NCBI RefSeq assembly: GCF_016653615.1
Contig: NZ_CP067393.1
Span: 1,503,673 to 1,567,672, forward strand
DNA length: 64,000 nt
Direction of reading: 5' to 3'
DNA from: Entomomonas asaccharolytica
GTDB lineage: Bacteria > Pseudomonadota > Gammaproteobacteria > Pseudomonadales > Pseudomonadaceae
The notes under the pieces were generated by a model. The model had not been told where the DNA came from and made no database searches. It saw only the letters and a program-made list of their open reading frames with translations. Positions 1 through 11,729 of the stretch are shown here, in pieces (the stretch's first letter is position 1; each line of letters starts with the position of its first letter). Position numbers and translations under genes: made by a program.

Positions 1-2108
1 CTGAAGAACAACCGCTATATGATTTTTTACAAGCTTCTAATAAAGTAACTTTATTTACGCAGGGTGTAACTTTACCCAATGATGGAGTGGAACATAACCA
101 ACAGAATGAAGTATTAAAGAGAATCACCTTTGCTAATGATATTGATGAACCATCCATTGCCATACACTTTAAGCAAGCAACTAATCTAATCAATCAAAAA
201 GCACTAAGCTTACGTATTCAAAATGCCATGGACTGGGATTTAAGATTATATGTGGATATTAAAGATACTTCCCAAACAACATTACTGCGAGCGACAATCG
301 CACTACCTGCTGGCCCTGCTCAAAACTTACTTATTCCGCTTAAACAAACCTCTGGACGAGTATGGGGAATGCGAGAGGGTTTATCTTCACCATGGCAAAA
401 AGATAATACACGTTATTTGCTACCTATGAGTGTGGTAGGTAAATTAGATACTAGTAAAATAGCTAGTATTACCCTATCAATGGCAAAACCAGCTATCCCA
501 CAAAGTATCTTAATAAGTAATATTAAGGCTATTGATAGTGATGCAGAGTATATGGCCTATCATCATTTGCTAGATAAATATGGTCAAAATAATACAGTTA
601 ATTGGCCAGATAAAATAACCAGTGATAAGCAATTACAGCAAGTGGCTCAAGCTGAACAAGCTCAATTAGAAGACTGGTTAAGTCATCAATTAATACAAGA
701 TAAATTTGGTGGTTTAGATGCTAAACCCCAATTTAAAGCCACTGGCTATTTTCGAACAGAAAAACATAACGGTAGATGGTATTTGGTTTCACCAGAAGGG
801 CATGCATTTATTTCTTTGGGTATTAATACAGTAGTACCAGATCAAAGCCAAACCTATATAACAGGGCGTGAATTTATGTTTGCTTCATTACCTGAACAAA
901 ATAAGCCATTGGCTAATTATTATGGCCATGCTGATACTAACAGTGGTAATGCTGCACAAGGCGGTAGAGGAATAGATAAGGGGCAATGGTATGACTTTTA
1001 CCAAGCCAATATGTATCGGGTACATGGTAAGGATGTAGTAAAAAACTGGCGTGAGCGTACCATAAATCGTTTTAAAGCATGGGGATTTAATACCATTGGT
1101 AATTGGAGTGATAAACAGCTAATTGCAGAAAAACGTTTACCCTATACCATGCCTATTTTAATTAAGGGGGATTATGCCAGTGTGCCATCGGGCATGGACT
1201 GGTGGGGATTTATGCCTGATACCTTTGACCCGAAGTTTACTGAAGCGGTGGAAAGAGCAGTGAAGTTAGCCACTAAAAATAGAGTAAATGATCCGTGGTT
1301 AGTGGGATATTTTGCAGATAATGAATTATCATGGGGTGGGCTAGATAACATACCTGCAGCTCACTATGCTCTAGCCATTAATTCATTAAGTAGAAATGCT
1401 GAAAGCCCAGCAAAGCAGGCATTTATAAAACAACTAAAAAATAAATATAAAGATATTGATAAGCTAGCAAATGCTTGGGGAGTAGCTATAAACGCATGGC
1501 AGGATATTGAGCAACAGGGTTATAGAGCACCTTTACCAACTGCTAAATACCCAGCAATTAGTGAAGATTATAGTATTTTCTTAACCAACTATGCAGATAA
1601 TTATTTCAAAACAGTAAAAGAGATGATTTATAAATATGATCCTAACCATTTATTTTTAGGTAATCGATTTGCTGTTAAATTACCTGAAGTAATAACTTCT
1701 TGCGCTAAATACTGTGATGTAATTAGTTTTAATACTTATACGCTGTTAGCAAGTCAGGGGTATGACACGGAATTAGTAGCCAGTTTAGACAGGCCGATAA
1801 TGATTAGTGAATTTACTTTTGGTTCTAAAACGACTGGCGCTTTATGGTCTGGTCCTGTAGCTGTTGCCGATGATAAAGTACGTGCTGATAGTTATCAGCA
1901 GTTTGTTAAAAATGCTTTTGAAGACCCTCATATGGTTGGGGTACATTGGTTCCAATATATAGATCAGCCTCTTACAGGGCGCTTGCTAGATGGTGAAAAC
2001 GGCAATATGGGGTTGGTTGCTATTACAGATGTGCCTTTTCATCAGTTTATTAAGCAAGTAAGGCAAGCTAATTTAGCTGTTGCAGCGTGGATATTAAATA
2101 AATTGTAA
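1..2108 (+). CDS. Agarase-like (clan GH-A, GH50-type) glycoside hydrolase, 5' end outside window
   Basis: The reading frame is open to the first base of the window, so the gene starts upstream; the GTG at 87 is only an internal candidate. Numbering from 87, an N-terminal beta-rich region (about 1-200) precedes a TIM-barrel-like domain opening with a 'GYFRTEKHNGRWYLVSPEGH' stretch typical of agarase-related enzymes. The Asn-Glu pair 'ADNELSWGG' puts a candidate acid/base at Glu413, and 'IMISEFTFGS' a candidate nucleophile at Glu575, the normal spacing for a retaining GH-A enzyme. The substrate cannot be told from sequence; true agarase activity is unlikely to be inferable. No signal peptide can be assessed because the N-terminus is missing. 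Confidence 0.75.
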   Translation, partial: EEQPLYDFLQASNKVTLFTQGVTLPNDGVEHNQQNEVLKRITFANDIDEPSIAIHFKQATNLINQKALSLRIQNAMDWDLRLYVDIKDTSQTTLLRATIALPAGPAQNLLIPLKQTSGRVWGMREGLSSPWQKDNTRYLLPMSVVGKLDTSKIASITLSMAKPAIPQSILISNIKAIDSDAEYMAYHHLLDKYGQNNTVNWPDKITSDKQLQQVAQAEQAQLEDWLSHQLIQDKFGGLDAKPQFKATGYFRTEKHNGRWYLVSPEGHAFISLGINTVVPDQSQTYITGREFMFASLPEQNKPLANYYGHADTNSGNAAQGGRGIDKGQWYDFYQANMYRVHGKDVVKNWRERTINRFKAWGFNTIGNWSDKQLIAEKRLPYTMPILIKGDYASVPSGMDWWGFMPDTFDPKFTEAVERAVKLATKNRVNDPWLVGYFADNELSWGGLDNIPAAHYALAINSLSRNAESPAKQAFIKQLKNKYKDIDKLANAWGVAINAWQDIEQQGYRAPLPTAKYPAISEDYSIFLTNYADNYFKTVKEMIYKYDPNHLFLGNRFAVKLPEVITSCAKYCDVISFNTYTLLASQGYDTELVASLDRPIMISEFTFGSKTTGALWSGPVAVADDKVRADSYQQFVKNAFEDPHMVGVHWFQYIDQPLTGRLLDGENGNMGLVAITDVPFHQFIKQVRQANLAVAAWILNKL

Positions 2109-2172: not shown

Positions 2173-3306
2173 ATGATGTCAAACAAGCGTATTTATTTTG
2201 AAACCAATGTAGTAGAAGTTAAACCAGATGAAACGGTATTAGATGGTTTTGTTCGTAGTGGCGTTTCAATTCCTTTTTCGTGTCGTGGTGGTTCTTGTCA
2301 AACCTGTGCTGTACGTTGTTTAGAGGGTGATATTCCCGCTGATGCACAACTTGGTTTATCAGACTATCAAAAAGAAAAGGGTTATATATTAACTTGTCGT
2401 TGTATTCCAACTACAGATATGACCATTGCCCCATTAAGCCCTGATGATGTTATCACTGATGCCTTCTTAATGGCTGTAGAGCAACCGACAGCGGCACATC
2501 CTAAATATCGTTTTACAATCGAATTGGGAAGAAGCCGCAAGTTTGAAATAGGCGATACCTTTAAAATCATCGATGGTACAAACGATGAACCAGTTGTTAA
2601 AGTGGTAGCAACTGATGGCGACTGGGTGCTTACTGTTGAACTATTAGCTGATACAGCCCCTGCAACACTCACTTGGTTACAAGGTGAATTACAACCTGAT
2701 ACGATGATTCAAATTCGTGGCCCCTACTCACAACAAATACCGATGTGGTTAACGGAAGAAAAACCAGATCCAGAACCGAATTTAGAGGTGTGGCATCAGT
2801 TAGATGATGGTGCAAAGGTAAGAACGGTATTAATCGATTTTTATGATCGCGTGTATGAAGATGAACGGTTAGCCCCTTTTTTTGCTAATGTGAGCAAAAC
2901 ACGCCTAGTTGAAAAACAATTTTCTTTTATGAAATACTTGTTCACCCGTGAACATGTTCATTTTGGCCAACGTCCTCGTAATTTACATCATTGGATGGTG
3001 ATTTCTGATGATTTAATGGATCATCGTCGTACTATTTTAGATGATACCTTTAAAGATCATGGTTTAACCGATGAGCAACGCCATGTGTGGCACCAGTATG
3101 AGGAAAAATTCCGTCAAGATGTGGTAAAAGATAAGCCTTGGCCGATTAAAGTGGGTGATGAGTTTATTGACTTAGAAGCATTTGATAAAGAAGTGTTATC
3201 TTGTGCTACAGTATGCGACCACTGTGGTGAACCAGTCGATGAGGGTACAGAGGTAATCTACCATCGTCGCACAGGTAAAATTAGTTGCCCTAGTTGTAGT
3301 AAATAA
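2173..3306 (+). CDS. [2Fe-2S] ferredoxin / truncated-globin fusion protein
   Basis: I place the start at the ATG ATG pair at 2173/2176, behind a GGAAA at 2163; an ATG at 2161 has no ribosome site. Numbered from 2173, residues 1-90 form a plant-type [2Fe-2S] ferredoxin domain with ligands Cys37, Cys42, Cys45 and Cys75. Residues about 105-195 resemble the FAD beta-barrel of ferredoxin reductases (ends in 'IRGPYS') but lack an obvious RxYS flavin motif and a following NAD domain. From about 205 a truncated/bacterial globin-like domain follows ('[19 protein letters not shown]', '[16 protein letters not shown]'). The C-terminus has CxxC...CxxC, a probable zinc ribbon. A haem- and iron-sulfur-containing redox or gas-sensing protein is inferred. 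It lies 28 bp ahead of speE on the same strand. Confidence 0.75.
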
Positions 3307-3334
3307 ATTTAATTTGATATTGTGGAAAAAATTA

Positions 3335-4195
3335 ATGAATAATTATTTAGAAACCCTGTATCCAGATTATGGTCAACGTTTTAGTGTTGATGAAATGTTA
3401 TTTGAAACACAAACAGACCATCAAAAATTAGTTATTTTTCGTAACGGGAAAATGGGTACAGTAATGGCCTTAGATGGTGTTATTCAAACCACTGAGGCAG
3501 ATGAGTTTATTTATCATGAAATGATGGCACATCTTCCCATTATGGCGCATGGTAATATAAAAAGTGTATTAATTATTGGTGGCGGTGACGGTGGAATGTT
3601 ACGTGAGGTTTGTCGCCATGCAACCATAGAAAAAATTACTATGGTAGAGATTGATAGAGGAGTTATTGATCTTTGTACTCAATATTTACCTAATCACTCG
3701 GCAGGTGCTTATCAAGATCCTCGATTAGAACTTGTGATTGGCGATGGTATGGAGTTTGTAGCTAATACATCACAACGCTATGATGTAATTATTTCAGATT
3801 CTACTGACCCTATTGGCCCTGCTGAAGTGTTATTTACGGAAAATTTTTATCAAGCATGTCATCGCTGTTTAACGGAAAGAGGGGTATTAGTTACTCAAAA
3901 TGGTACACCTTTTATGCAGTTGGACGAGGTAAAGAGTACAGCAAATAAAATGCAAGGTTTGTTCGCAGATTGGCATTTTTATCGTGCCGCAGTACCTACT
4001 TATATTGGTGGCGATATGACTTTTGCTTGGGGAAGTAAGGATAAAGGATTACGTTATACTTCTCTTGAGGAATTAAAGGCTCGTTTTGCTAAAGCTAATA
4101 TTAAAACGCGTTATTATAATCCTGCTGTACATTATGCAGCATTTGCTTTACCACAATATGTATTAGAAGCGATTGGTAAACAAAATAATGATTAA
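3335..4195 (+). CDS. speE: Polyamine aminopropyltransferase (spermidine synthase)
   Basis: Transfers an aminopropyl group from decarboxylated S-adenosylmethionine to putrescine in the cytosol. The ATG at 3335 has a GGA eight bases upstream and gives 286 residues beginning '[16 protein letters not shown]', matching the family length (about 285-290); an in-frame TTG at 3314 is less likely. The nucleotide-binding glycine loop '[13 protein letters not shown]', the acidic strand end '[11 protein letters not shown]' and the '[14 protein letters not shown]' active-site segment are all present. The gene ends just before a strong stem-loop terminator at 4201. No speD lies adjacent. Confidence 0.93.
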
Positions 4196-4200
4196 AAAAT

Positions 4201-4228
4201 TATCCCCTTAGTTTTCGCTAAGGGGATA
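4201..4228. terminator. Bidirectional intrinsic terminator between speE and the 4235 gene
   Basis: Perfect 11-bp stem TATCCCCTTAG / CTAAGGGGATA with a 6-base loop. A-rich sequence on the left (AAAAAAT) and an AT-rich tract on the right allow termination from both convergent genes. Confidence 0.85.
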
Positions 4229-4234
4229 AAATTA

Positions 4235-4894: not shown

Positions 4895-5440
4895 ATGAAA
4901 AAGAAAGCATTGTTGTTGTATTCAACCATTGATGGTCAGACATTTGCAATCATCTCTAAAATAGTTTTACGCATGACGGAAGAAGCTGAAGATATCGAAC
5001 ATGAAGTTTATGATTTATGGAAAATGCCAGAATTAGATTTGAATGAGTACTCTACTATCCTAATGGGAGCAGCCATTCGCTATAATAAATTTGATAAACC
5101 TTTCTTAAATTTTATTAAAAAGAATTATAAAGCGTTAAATGAGAAAAATTCGGCTTTCTTTTGTGTTAATTTAACAGCAAGAAAGCCAGGAAAAGACACA
5201 CCAGAAACGAATGGTTATGCCCGTAGATTTTTAGCAAAAACGCCATGGAAACCCAATTTAAAAGCTGTTTTTGCAGGCTCTCTACGTTATCCACGCTATA
5301 GTTGGTATGATAAGATTTTAATCAAGTTTATTATGTGGATGGATGGTGAAAAACAAGATTTAAGTAAAGAGTATAATTATACTAATTGGCAAAAAGTGGA
5401 TGAGTTTGCGCAACAGTTTATCGCTTTAGCACGTAAATAG
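4895..5440 (+). CDS. hemG: Menaquinone-dependent protoporphyrinogen IX dehydrogenase
   Basis: Oxidises protoporphyrinogen IX to protoporphyrin IX in haem synthesis, passing electrons to membrane quinone. The protein is 181 residues, the length of E. coli HemG. It starts with a flavodoxin-type FMN phosphate loop ('LLYSTIDGQT', residues 7-16), contains the 'MGAAIRYNKFDKPFLNFI' flavin region, and carries the long basic/aromatic insert ('RYPRYSWYDKILIKFIMWMDGE') that separates HemG from ordinary flavodoxins and helps membrane association. It is a single gene with its own terminator at 5458. Supplying haem fits the bd oxidase, catalase and globin genes of this window, though they are not in one operon. 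Confidence 0.9.
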   Translation: MKKKALLLYSTIDGQTFAIISKIVLRMTEEAEDIEHEVYDLWKMPELDLNEYSTILMGAAIRYNKFDKPFLNFIKKNYKALNEKNSAFFCVNLTARKPGKDTPETNGYARRFLAKTPWKPNLKAVFAGSLRYPRYSWYDKILIKFIMWMDGEKQDLSKEYNYTNWQKVDEFAQQFIALARK

Positions 5441-7529: not shown

Positions 7530-9074
7530 CTACTTAACTGGTTCAGTTAGTACAACAGGGCCTAAGCGAGCATATTTAAACATCAAATACATCTCTGCTA
7601 CGAGTAAGCCTGTATAGAACACAACAAAGCCAATTAATGATGCTAGTACAGAACCTGCACCAACAGAAGAAGGCGACAGATAAGTAGGTAATACACCAAA
7701 TACAGTCCAAGGTTGACGACCATATTCAGCTAGGAACCAACCACACATAATGGCAACCCATGGTAATGGAATGGCGTATAAGCAAAATTTAAGAAACCAA
7801 CGTTTTTCTTGCATGGTGTCTTTAATAGAAAGACGGAACGCATAGATAAACATAAAGATAAACAGGAAGCCTAAGGCAACCATTACACGGAATGACCAGA
7901 ATAGAGGTGTAACTTTAGGTACACTATCATGAGCAGCCTGTGTAATAATGGCAGGTGTTGCATCTTCCACTTTTTCAACGTATTGGTGAACAAGTAGACC
8001 ATAACCCAAATCTGCTTGATGTGCTTGCAGTTGTTTTGTTGCAGCAGCATGCTCAGTTGTTTTGGTTTTATCTTTTAGAATATTTAAAGCTTTAACTGCT
8101 TCAATACCACTGATAATACGTTGCTCATTTTGGGTGCGGATATCTTTGATACCTGGTAGTTTAGTATCGAAAGAACGAGTGCTGATAATACCTAACACAT
8201 AAGGAATTCTGATTTCATAATGGTTAGTTTCAGCCTCCTCATCAGGAATAGCAAATAGGGTAAAGCCAGCTGGAGCTTCTTCAGTTTCCCACATGCCTTC
8301 TAGTGCGGCTAATTTAGATTTTTGAGATTGGGTAACAGAGTACCCTGATTCATCACCTAAAATTACTACACTTAAGGAAGAAGCAATACCAAAGGCAGCA
8401 GCAATACAGAAAGAGCGTTTAGCAAATTCTATATGTTTACCTTTTAATAAATACCAGCCTGAGATACCAAGTACAAACATTGAGCCTGTCACATAGCCTG
8501 CAGAAACCGTATGGACAAATTTCTCTTGTGCCATTGGATTAAAGACGATATCAACGAAACTATTTAACTCCATACGCATAGTAATAGGGTTAAAGTGTGC
8601 GCCAAGAGGATCTTGCATCCAGCCATTAGCAATCAATATCAATACAGCAGAAAGGTTGGAGCCTAGTGCTAGTAAGATAGTGACCATTAGGTGTTTACCT
8701 TTGGATAGTCTATTCCAACCAAAGAAGAATAAGCCAATCATGGTGGATTCTAAGAAGAATGCCATTAAACCTTCAATAGCCAAGGGTGCACCAAAGATAT
8801 CACCCACATAATGAGAATAATACGCCCAGTTCGTACCAAACTGGAATTCCATAGTAATACCCGTAGTAACCCCTAGAGCAAAGTTAATTCCAAAGAGTTT
8901 TCCCCAGAATTTAGTCATCTCCTTGTAAATTTCTTTACCAGTAATAACATAAACAGATTCCATAATAACTAGAATCCATACCAACCCTAGCGTTAAGGGT
9001 ACAAAGATAAAGTGATACATCCCAGTGATTGCAAACTGCAATCTGGCAAGATCAACAGCACTACCGTCTATCAT
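7530..9074 (-). CDS. cydA: Cytochrome bd ubiquinol oxidase subunit I
   Basis: Haem-carrying catalytic subunit that oxidises quinol and reduces O2 to water at low oxygen. The 514-residue length, with a long hydrophilic insert after the fifth to sixth helices, indicates the long (E. coli-type) Q-loop. Conserved features are His21 in 'GMYHFIFVPLTLG' (haem d/b595 region), the His in 'EKFVHTVSAGYVTGS' and the Met in 'FWSFRVMVALGF' (haem b558 ligands). The start overlaps the cydP stop by 4 bp (ATGA), indicating translational coupling. Confidence 0.96.
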   Translation of the reverse strand: MIDGSAVDLARLQFAITGMYHFIFVPLTLGLVWILVIMESVYVITGKEIYKEMTKFWGKLFGINFALGVTTGITMEFQFGTNWAYYSHYVGDIFGAPLAIEGLMAFFLESTMIGLFFFGWNRLSKGKHLMVTILLALGSNLSAVLILIANGWMQDPLGAHFNPITMRMELNSFVDIVFNPMAQEKFVHTVSAGYVTGSMFVLGISGWYLLKGKHIEFAKRSFCIAAAFGIASSLSVVILGDESGYSVTQSQKSKLAALEGMWETEEAPAGFTLFAIPDEEAETNHYEIRIPYVLGIISTRSFDTKLPGIKDIRTQNEQRIISGIEAVKALNILKDKTKTTEHAAATKQLQAHQADLGYGLLVHQYVEKVEDATPAIITQAAHDSVPKVTPLFWSFRVMVALGFLFIFMFIYAFRLSIKDTMQEKRWFLKFCLYAIPLPWVAIMCGWFLAEYGRQPWTVFGVLPTYLSPSSVGAGSVLASLIGFVVFYTGLLVAEMYLMFKYARLGPVVLTEPVK

Positions 9075-10079: not shown

Positions 10080-11729
10080 TTAAGCAGCTAAAATTTTATT
10101 AAGATCTTGTTGTGCTATTGTGGTTGGATGTAGCTCAAACTTTTCAACAATAATATTAATAAGATTAGGTGTTAAGAAGGCTGGTAGTGTTGGCCCTGCA
10201 AAGATATTTTTAACACCTAATGATAATAGAGTAAGTAAAATTACAATGGCTTTTTGTTCGAACCAAGAAAGTACCAGTGTTAACGGCAGATCATTAACAG
10301 TACAGCCTAATCTTTCCGATAAATGAACAGCTAGCATAACGGCAGAATAGGCATCGTTACATTGTCCAACATCTATTAGTCGTGGTAGCCCCTCTATATC
10401 TCCAAAACTTTCTTTATTAAAACGGTACTTACCACAGCCTAGAGTCAGAATGGCACAGTCTTGCGGAACATTCATGGCAAATTCATTATAGTAGTTACGT
10501 TCGTCACGGCTACCATCACAACCACCTATTAGGAATATATGGCGTAATTTATGTTGACTAACAAGGTTAAGAACTGTATCTGCTGCGCCTAATAAAGTTT
10601 TACGAGCAAAACCTATAGTAATTGGATGTTCCAGTTCTGTATGTTGAAAACCAGGTAGGCTTAATGCTTGTGTAATAACATTTGTAAAGTCTCTATCTGC
10701 TATGTGTTTTACATCAGGCCAACCGACCATACTACGTGTCCAAATACGGTCTTGATAGTTGCCTACATTAGGGTCAATAATACAGTTCGATGTCATAATG
10801 ATAGGGCCTGGGAAACCAGCAAATTCAGTTTGTTGATTTTGCCATGCACTACCATAGTTACCCACTAGATGCTTAAATTTATGGAAAGCAGGGTAGGCAT
10901 GGGCTGGTAACATTTCACCATGAGTATAAACATTGATACCTTTGCCCTCTGTTTGTTTAAGCAGTGCATACAAGTCTTTTAAATCATGACCAGAAACAAC
11001 AATACATTTACCTTTTACAGGTTTAGTATTGACTGTGCTAGGAATAGGATCACCAAAATTTGTGGTTTCCCCTTTATCTAATAATGCCATAACTCCAAAA
11101 TTCATCTCACCAATAGCCATCGCATTATCTAATAAGGTATTAATATCTGTTGGTTCAGTGCCAAGCCAACTCATAATTTGGTGATATTGTAAATGTATAT
11201 TATCATCAGCTTGACCTAATACGTGGGCATGTTCCATATAGGCAGCAGCACCTTTTAGTCCATATAGGCAAAGCATTCTCAAGCCATGTATATCTTCGCT
11301 TATTTCTTTTTTTGCCTTTAAAGAAAAAGCTTTAGCTTGTTCCTGTAACACTTTAATGGTATTACCTTGTAATTGTAATAAAGCGAGAGGATGTTCTAAA
11401 TGTGCAGCGGCATCTTTAGTTTGACATTGTTTGATTAAACGATCTCTTAATTGAATGGCTTCAATGGTATATTCAATAATACGGTTAGAGTCAAAATTAA
11501 CATTGGTCAAAGTCGAAAAGAAAGCTTTTGGGGAAAAAAGGTTTACTTCTTTATCAATAATATTTAATTCATTTGCCTTGATAGCCCATGCTGATAAGCT
11601 TTGTAGGGTGGCTATTAATAGATCTTGTAAGTCTGATGTTTCTGCTGTTTTACCACACATTCCTTTAGCGTAAGAACAACCATTTCCTTGTGTTGTTCTC
11701 ATTGTTTGTTCACATTGTACACAATACAT
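10080..11729 (-). CDS. hcp: Hybrid cluster protein (hydroxylamine reductase / NO reductase)
   Basis: Cytosolic Fe-S protein that detoxifies nitric oxide or hydroxylamine under low oxygen. The 549 residues begin '[20 protein letters not shown]'; cysteines at 3, 6, 18 and 25 (C-x2-C-x11-C-x6-C) give the spacing of the class II, [2Fe-2S]-type Hcp of facultative bacteria. Hybrid-cluster ligand regions '[13 protein letters not shown]' and '[11 protein letters not shown]' are present. GAGGTAGC precedes the ATG. No hcr reductase gene is adjacent, so the electron donor must lie elsewhere. A perfect palindrome 60 bp upstream may be its operator. Confidence 0.95.

Follow-up and report, generated by a model that had tools for sequence, protein, structure and literature searches.

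What might a bacterium do with a protein that places a ferredoxin, a reductase-like barrel, a globin, and a pair of CxxC motifs in one chain, and from where would such a chain take its electrons? The question is raised by an open reading frame in a 64,000-nucleotide stretch of Entomomonas asaccharolytica DNA (contig NZ_CP067393.1, positions 1,503,673 to 1,567,672; hereafter the window). The frame lies on the forward strand at 2173 to 3306, is open throughout, and encodes 377 amino acids, or 381 if translation starts at the ATG at 2161 rather than at 2173. Three genomes of the same genus carry orthologues, at 95% (G002), 77% (G001), and 75% (G003) identity, and comparison with G002 gives a dN/dS of 0.043 overall and 0.019 for the linker and globin: the gene is under purifying selection. 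The orthologues and the dN/dS together establish a real and maintained gene and rule out a chance reading frame, and a frameshifted remnant of a longer gene is ruled out by a frame that is open and keeps its length in G001 and G002. The G003 copy (L003/L050, about 1078-2205) carries an internal stop within the barrel region, which may be an assembly error since this metagenome-assembled genome is a draft, 77% complete; as an interrupted frame it contributed its 3′ part alone, to alignment A2, and is absent from the motif table and trees below. The window protein has matches in 49 of the 57 relatives searched, and among the matches listed the full-length ones are confined to the genus, those elsewhere covering the ferredoxin half except for one globin match in G052. 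Neither Pfam nor NCBIfam has a family that spans the whole chain, and PADLOC gave no match to it.

The initial annotation had described four parts in this order, and Pfam, a structural model, profiles, and motifs all bear that layout out. Residues 1-95 (2173..2457, forward strand) form a plant-type [2Fe-2S] ferredoxin domain, as the annotation had it: Fer2 matches with 61.5 bits (Pfam cut-off 21), the modeled residues match ferredoxins with VIA Z scores of up to 13.5, and the four cysteines predicted to hold the cluster are present (Cys 37, 42, 45, and 75, with codons at 2281, 2296, 2305, and 2395). The C-x4-C-x2-C pattern and the fourth cysteine recur in 19 of 19 aligned ferredoxin-bearing relatives, and the window protein probably binds a cluster.

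Residues 96-187 (2458..2733, forward strand) are a degenerate FAD-type barrel. The window protein has no Pfam match to an FAD or NAD domain, and both the RxYS flavin motif and the NAD motif are absent from it in our motif table. When a profile of three same-genus sequences is aligned to the FAD domain of full-length relatives, hhalign nonetheless gives a score of 29.7 (E 8e-5, probability 61%), against 21.6 for the best of 100 column-shuffled controls and 8-12 for NAD, ferredoxin, and globin controls; to judge from these profiles, the window barrel and the FAD domain of the full forms share a common ancestor. Foldseek ranks benzoate dioxygenase reductase first for the window model (1krh, E 7.8e-12 over 221 columns) and also matches 5ogx; the TM of 0.22 and rmsd of 12.4 to 1krh mean that the domains cannot be superposed as one body. 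The barrel fold is assigned from the profile together with Foldseek, because the VIA matches listed (50 rows) barely cover residues 95-203 and include no reductase. Set beside the ferredoxin-FAD-NAD combination of BenC-type reductases, the window protein falls short, whereas relative L055 has all three, keeping FAD_binding_6 (37 bits) and NAD_binding_1 (63 bits). The proposal of a reductase piece without a flavin motif is thus confirmed, and that of a lost NAD module is supported. The barrel is also the loosest and most variable part of the protein, with 55% identity to G001 compared to 88% for the ferredoxin, 81% for the globin, and 84% for the tail.

The third part, residues 204-320 (2782..3132, forward strand), is a truncated globin of group 1 type. 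An AlphaFold2 model built on 23 family members has a mean pLDDT of 80 and a pTM of 0.52, so that its domains are credible and their arrangement relative to one another is not. Within it the predicted globin-like domain takes a truncated-haemoglobin fold (VIA Z 14.6-13.1 over 110-114 residues), a match that does not by itself separate group 1 from group 2 since 1ux8 scores 13.2. The sequence does separate them: a profile of 17 globin-Cys4 regions retrieves group 1 proteins first (Tetrahymena, E 4.6e-15), with B. subtilis YjbI (1ux8) at 0.0044. Alignment to the Tetrahymena protein and its Y25F, Q46E, and Q50E mutants places TyrB10 at Y224 (2842), LeuE7 at L245 (2905), GlnE11 at Q249 (2917), and HisF8 at H272 (2986). 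The B10, E11, and F8 residues and the nearest sequences are those of group 1, and the 2/2 fold agrees. Y224, H272, and the HHWMVI segment at F8 are invariant across the family (alignment A4). Bac_globin (PF01152) hovers around its cut-off of 21 in the window protein, at 20.1 bits in one search and 22.5 in another, and reaches 35-43 bits in relatives L055, L056, and L122; the window gene is the sole PF01152 match in its genome (G000). We expect the domain to bind haem. One suggestion of the initial annotation has to be given up, namely that the protein is a rearranged flavohaemoglobin, because the globin is of another lineage, a 2/2 group 1 domain toward the C-terminus rather than an N-terminal 3/3 globin, and because the reductase half of the full-length relatives is closest to ferredoxin-fused reductases of the PRK05713, BenC, and GcoB types.

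The chain closes with a tail (3133..3303, forward strand) that carries Cys 348, 351, 372, and 375 (codons at 3214, 3223, 3286, and 3295) in a CxxC-x20-CxxC arrangement found in 23 of 23 aligned members. This had been called a zinc ribbon; the motif and its four invariant cysteines hold, and the zinc identity draws no support from a search of the L055 tail against the PDB, which returned no significant match (best E 0.087).

These features define a rare family with three architectures: a full chain of ferredoxin, FAD domain, NAD domain, globin, and Cys4 tail (17 of 28 members), the short chain of the window (7), and a globin-Cys4 protein without the rest (4). Pfam cut-offs are passed by L055 for Fer2, FAD_binding_6, NAD_binding_1, and Bac_globin alike. 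The motif table has 23 aligned rows, of which 12 show the ferredoxin, RxYS, [TS]G[TS]G, HHWMV, and Cys4 motifs, 7 are short forms with ferredoxin, globin, and Cys4 and neither of the reductase motifs, and 4 are globin-Cys4 proteins. RxYS and the NAD motif thus always come together, both in 12 and neither in 7 of the 19 ferredoxin-bearing rows. The count of 28 adds five rows (L110, L115, L112, L113, and L059), among them L110, which starts at a contig end with its ferredoxin outside, is counted as full by its NAD motif, and is omitted from the ferredoxin tree, and L115, whose start is uncertain; both are in the globin tree. L123 (G996) and L061 encode other truncated globins and were left out.

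A globin-Cys4 profile finds the family in 5 of 369 genomes sampled from the class; 27 pass 1e-6, the non-family ones at 55 bits or less being other globins. Family members make up 11 of the 12 loci from a scan of GTDB contigs, and within the families or order of known members the protein is found in 7 of 24, 3 of 57, 1 of 97, and 4 of 40 genomes; six of the last set pass the threshold, two of them as partial matches (to positions 148 and 139 of 176). In a sample of the phylum, 50 of 398 genomes pass 1e-15 with profile A3, a near-complete match over the 176 positions occurs only in G000 and G422, and the others listed score 89.5 bits or less. Viral contigs gave 26 pattern matches and none encodes a relative, and none of 249 matching plasmid records covers more than 80% of the query, those listed being annotated as 2Fe-2S or FAD-binding proteins. 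Other truncated globins turned up along the way: genomes of family f226 (e.g., G445, G477, G617, and G665) have several matches each, some close together on one contig, and L026, L029, L037, and L038 encode a fusion of about 300 amino acids in which a half that looks globin-like by eye precedes a truncated globin.

How the architectures are related can be read in part from trees. In the globin-Cys4 tree, six short forms, from the window genus, Corticibacter, Aquabacterium, and a Comamonadaceae MAG, group in a single starred clade (100/98), which has a full-length Nitrosomonadales pair as its sister (84/82), and the Gallionella short form (L056) sits elsewhere. A tree with all short forms in one clade survives the AU test (p 0.366), leaving one or two losses of the reductase according to how L056 is placed, and so does a tree that unites all full forms (p 0.165). 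The ferredoxin tree is without resolution, and a single origin of all the family's ferredoxin domains is not rejected either (p-AU 0.367). That the short form would derive from the full chain by losing the NAD domain and the capacity to bind FAD is the best reading rather than a proven one, given the ferredoxin tree, the AU tests, and the program's warning of long branches meeting in the globin-Cys4 tree.

Beyond the chain itself, the relatives share a genomic setting. The fetched flanks of the globin gene hold a Roadblock-like protein without a Pfam match, here RB134, at 21 of 27 loci, a fusion of an ABC ATPase with a DSP/tyrosine-phosphatase domain at 19, and a Ras-like GTPase at 16. Less often the flanks also encode another protein of Roadblock type (Robl_LC7, 54 bits), one with a CxxCxxCC motif, and one of 370-390 amino acids without a Pfam match. 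These counts are not independent events, since L108-L114, seven loci in all, belong to a single genus and the four loci L057-L060 are close copies of one another. One of the six loci without RB134 is cut by a contig end (L110), and the other five (L051, L106, L107, L117, and L118) have RB134 elsewhere in the genome. RB134 is present in 9 of 9 genomes searched, G000 and G003 included (213-249 bits), and the GTPase profile matches in 7, with no match in G003 (77% complete) or in Gallionella G1001. The globin gene lies away from this set in the window genus, Corticibacter, G841, and G422. In the window genus the set is scattered in the chromosome: in G000 the ABC-phosphatase and RB134 genes form a pair beside an ahcY-like gene near 2.737-2.739 Mb, and two GTPase-Roadblock pairs, also distant from the globin gene, map near 2.063 and 2.323 Mb.

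Presence in the genome tells a similar story. RB134 occurs in 8 genomes of the class sample, and these include each of the 5 that have the globin family, a hypergeometric P of 1e-9 that ignores relatedness and includes 3 genomes of 5 in which adjacency was the means of discovery. The figure is partly circular, because RB134 was found beside globin genes and G180 and G366 each contributed to its profile; when these two and G252 are set aside, the association is 2 of 2 versus 5 of 366 (P 1.5e-4, relatedness again ignored). The ABC-phosphatase fusion (e.g., L111:3363-4724 and L138:7236-8777) and RB134 also occur together in three globin-less genomes (L149-L151), and the pair is apparently an unnamed module. 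PADLOC gave seven matches to the ABC-phosphatase, the best of them mad3 (54 bits), which we took as shared ATPase motifs. At one further locus (G834, L116:7945-8934) the globin gene is followed by a Roadblock protein (24 bits) and a 208-amino-acid protein without a Pfam match.

The immediate surroundings of the window gene are of a different kind. Next downstream is speE, for spermidine synthase (3314..4195, forward strand), and upstream a glycoside-hydrolase-type gene with GH42/agarase-CBM domains (87..2108, forward strand), both in place in the three same-genus genomes. A terminator-like site follows speE at 4200-4229; such sites number 3 against 1.2 expected from shuffles, and promoters 4 against 9.0 expected. 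Farther along lie a menaquinone-dependent protoporphyrinogen IX dehydrogenase gene of hemG type (4895-5440, forward strand, 224.8 bits), which serves haem synthesis and lies 1.6 kb beyond the globin gene, a cydA-like gene (7530-9074; 761 bits, below its equivalog cut-off), and hcp, for hybrid cluster protein or hydroxylamine reductase (10080-11729, reverse strand, NCBIfam 779.7 bits).

The reading we favor, and to which we would give an even chance, is that an ancestral chain gave rise to the full and short forms of a haem-redox protein whose most likely use, since most members lie beside the Roadblock-like protein, the GTPase, and the ABC-phosphatase, is as the haem or redox input of a small-GTPase switch. 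The ancestor would have been a self-sufficient chain running from NAD(P)H through FAD and [2Fe-2S] to a truncated globin and a Cys4 tail, and in today's full forms NAD(P)H would reduce FAD, which would pass electrons to the [2Fe-2S] cluster and on to the globin haem. With the NAD domain gone and the barrel presumably left as a spacer in the window genus, the ferredoxin domain would have to draw electrons from a separate reductase. Two other ferredoxin-like matches in G000 (at 563233 and 572295) may be sources for the short form, and in Gallionella, whose protein is also short, its gene is followed after about 2 kb by one for a complete ferredoxin-FAD-NAD reductase (L056:8744-9697). The ferredoxin could then hold the haem in its ferrous form, ready for O2 or NO, and the Roadblock/GTPase set would read out which state (O2, NO, or redox) the haem is in. 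What the sequences establish is the domain anatomy with its missing FAD and NAD motifs, the gene linkage, and the co-occurrence; cofactor binding, the path of the electrons, the ligand, and the coupling to the GTPase are inferences. An outside electron donor or a sensing role had been proposed for the window protein; both are sensible consequences of its layout, and the gene link favors signaling. In its most general form, which we put forward tentatively, the proposal is of haem-redox-controlled GTPase signaling in Proteobacteria, in which a globin with its own wiring, or a stripped one with borrowed electrons, would inform the switch of O2, NO, or redox state, perhaps via the Cys4 tail.

Some of the same observations can be read as enzymology. 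The globin could be an NO dioxygenase, an analogue of flavohaemoglobin built from a group 1 truncated globin, of which the short form would be a two-component version with its reductase in trans; we consider this possible, if on the unlikely side. The TyrB10/LeuE7/GlnE11 pocket is that of M. tuberculosis trHbN (whose B10 Tyr and E11 Gln are named in PDB titles), a truncated haemoglobin with NO-dioxygenase activity, and is thus compatible with an enzyme. Turnover would need just the NAD(P)H chain that 17 of 28 members have, and the Gallionella reductase gene would fit a two-component enzyme. In Legionella, a truncated-haemoglobin gene is reported to be paired with a ferredoxin reductase gene under NsrR (PMC3820574). 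The same reading gains from hcp and the cydA-like gene about 4-8 kb downstream in the window and from ORFs resembling both near the G002 orthologue, and loses from the stretch fetched from G001, which showed neither an hcp nor a cyd ORF. Detoxification would also leave the invariant Cys4 tail and the RB134 link unexplained, and that the recurrent neighbors over 27 loci are signaling genes speaks weakly against it.

The link could instead be hitch-hiking, with an ordinary multidomain redox protein in a neighborhood to which it owes nothing. The loci at which the gene lies away from the set would then be expected, as would the 3 of 8 RB134 genomes that lack a globin of this family. Yet genomes with a displaced globin gene still have RB134, and only 3 of 364 globin-negative genomes in the sample do, so we think this improbable. 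Less probable by far is that the short form is a decaying gene on its way to loss; the divergence of the barrel and the stop in G003 would suit it, but selection on the gene is strong, above all in the linker and globin, short forms persist in several genera, and the stop comes from the incomplete draft.

Whichever use proves right, this one family contains a complete NADH-to-haem chain, a chain with a dead barrel, and a globin with nothing but the Cys4 tail, and comparing the three can test what electron supply does for truncated globins. To our knowledge, the signals that feed bacterial Roadblock/Ras-like GTPase systems are mostly unknown. If the gene link reflects function, the family would offer a concrete haem or redox input for such systems and a signaling role for truncated globins.

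Among known systems, group 1 truncated haemoglobins (Tetrahymena 3aq5, Paramecium 1dlw, M. tuberculosis HbN 1idr) are alike in the 2/2 fold, TyrB10, GlnE11, and HisF8, and differ in that the globin here is fused behind a ferredoxin and barrel and ahead of a Cys4 tail, with HHWMVI invariant in its family at F8. Flavohaemoglobin (Hmp) resembles the full relatives in joining NAD, FAD, and globin in one chain, but its 3/3 globin is N-terminal and it has no ferredoxin or Cys4 tail, and the window protein for its part lacks RxYS and the NAD domain. Ferredoxin-fused reductases (BenC 1krh, GcoB 5ogx, PRK05713) have the ferredoxin-FAD-NAD order of the full relatives; they carry no globin, and the window protein keeps only their ferredoxin and a barrel remnant. 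Globin-coupled sensors join globin and transmitter in one protein, and Pfam detects no transmitter domain in the window protein or its relatives, the link to signaling being one of gene neighborhood only. HGbRL of Methylacidiphilum fuses a globin to a Roadblock/LC7 domain (PMC4476040) and likewise ties a globin to Roadblock-type regulation; there a different kind of globin shares a single polypeptide with the Roadblock domain and a redox chain is lacking, whereas here the genes are separate and the globin truncated. The pairing of Roadblock and Ras-like GTPase genes that marks Streptomyces conservons is found at relatives' loci such as L055, and conservons have cytochrome P450 accessory proteins and so also place a haem protein beside a Roadblock and Ras-like GTPase set (PMC13343842); they include the sensor kinase CvnA and the CvnC protein where our loci have an ABC-phosphatase fusion and a globin. 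In its main text, a survey of prokaryotic Ras GTPases mentions neither globins nor ferredoxins (PMC4316618), and our searches of the open-licence PMC literature listed no paper recognizable, by its title and the opening of its abstract, as describing a ferredoxin-reductase-truncated-globin chain or such a globin beside Roadblock, GTPase, and ABC-phosphatase genes. Precedents thus exist for a globin with Roadblock, for a haem P450 in conservons, and for a truncated haemoglobin beside a ferredoxin reductase gene, and what appears to be new, on these searches, is this chain together with this gene set.
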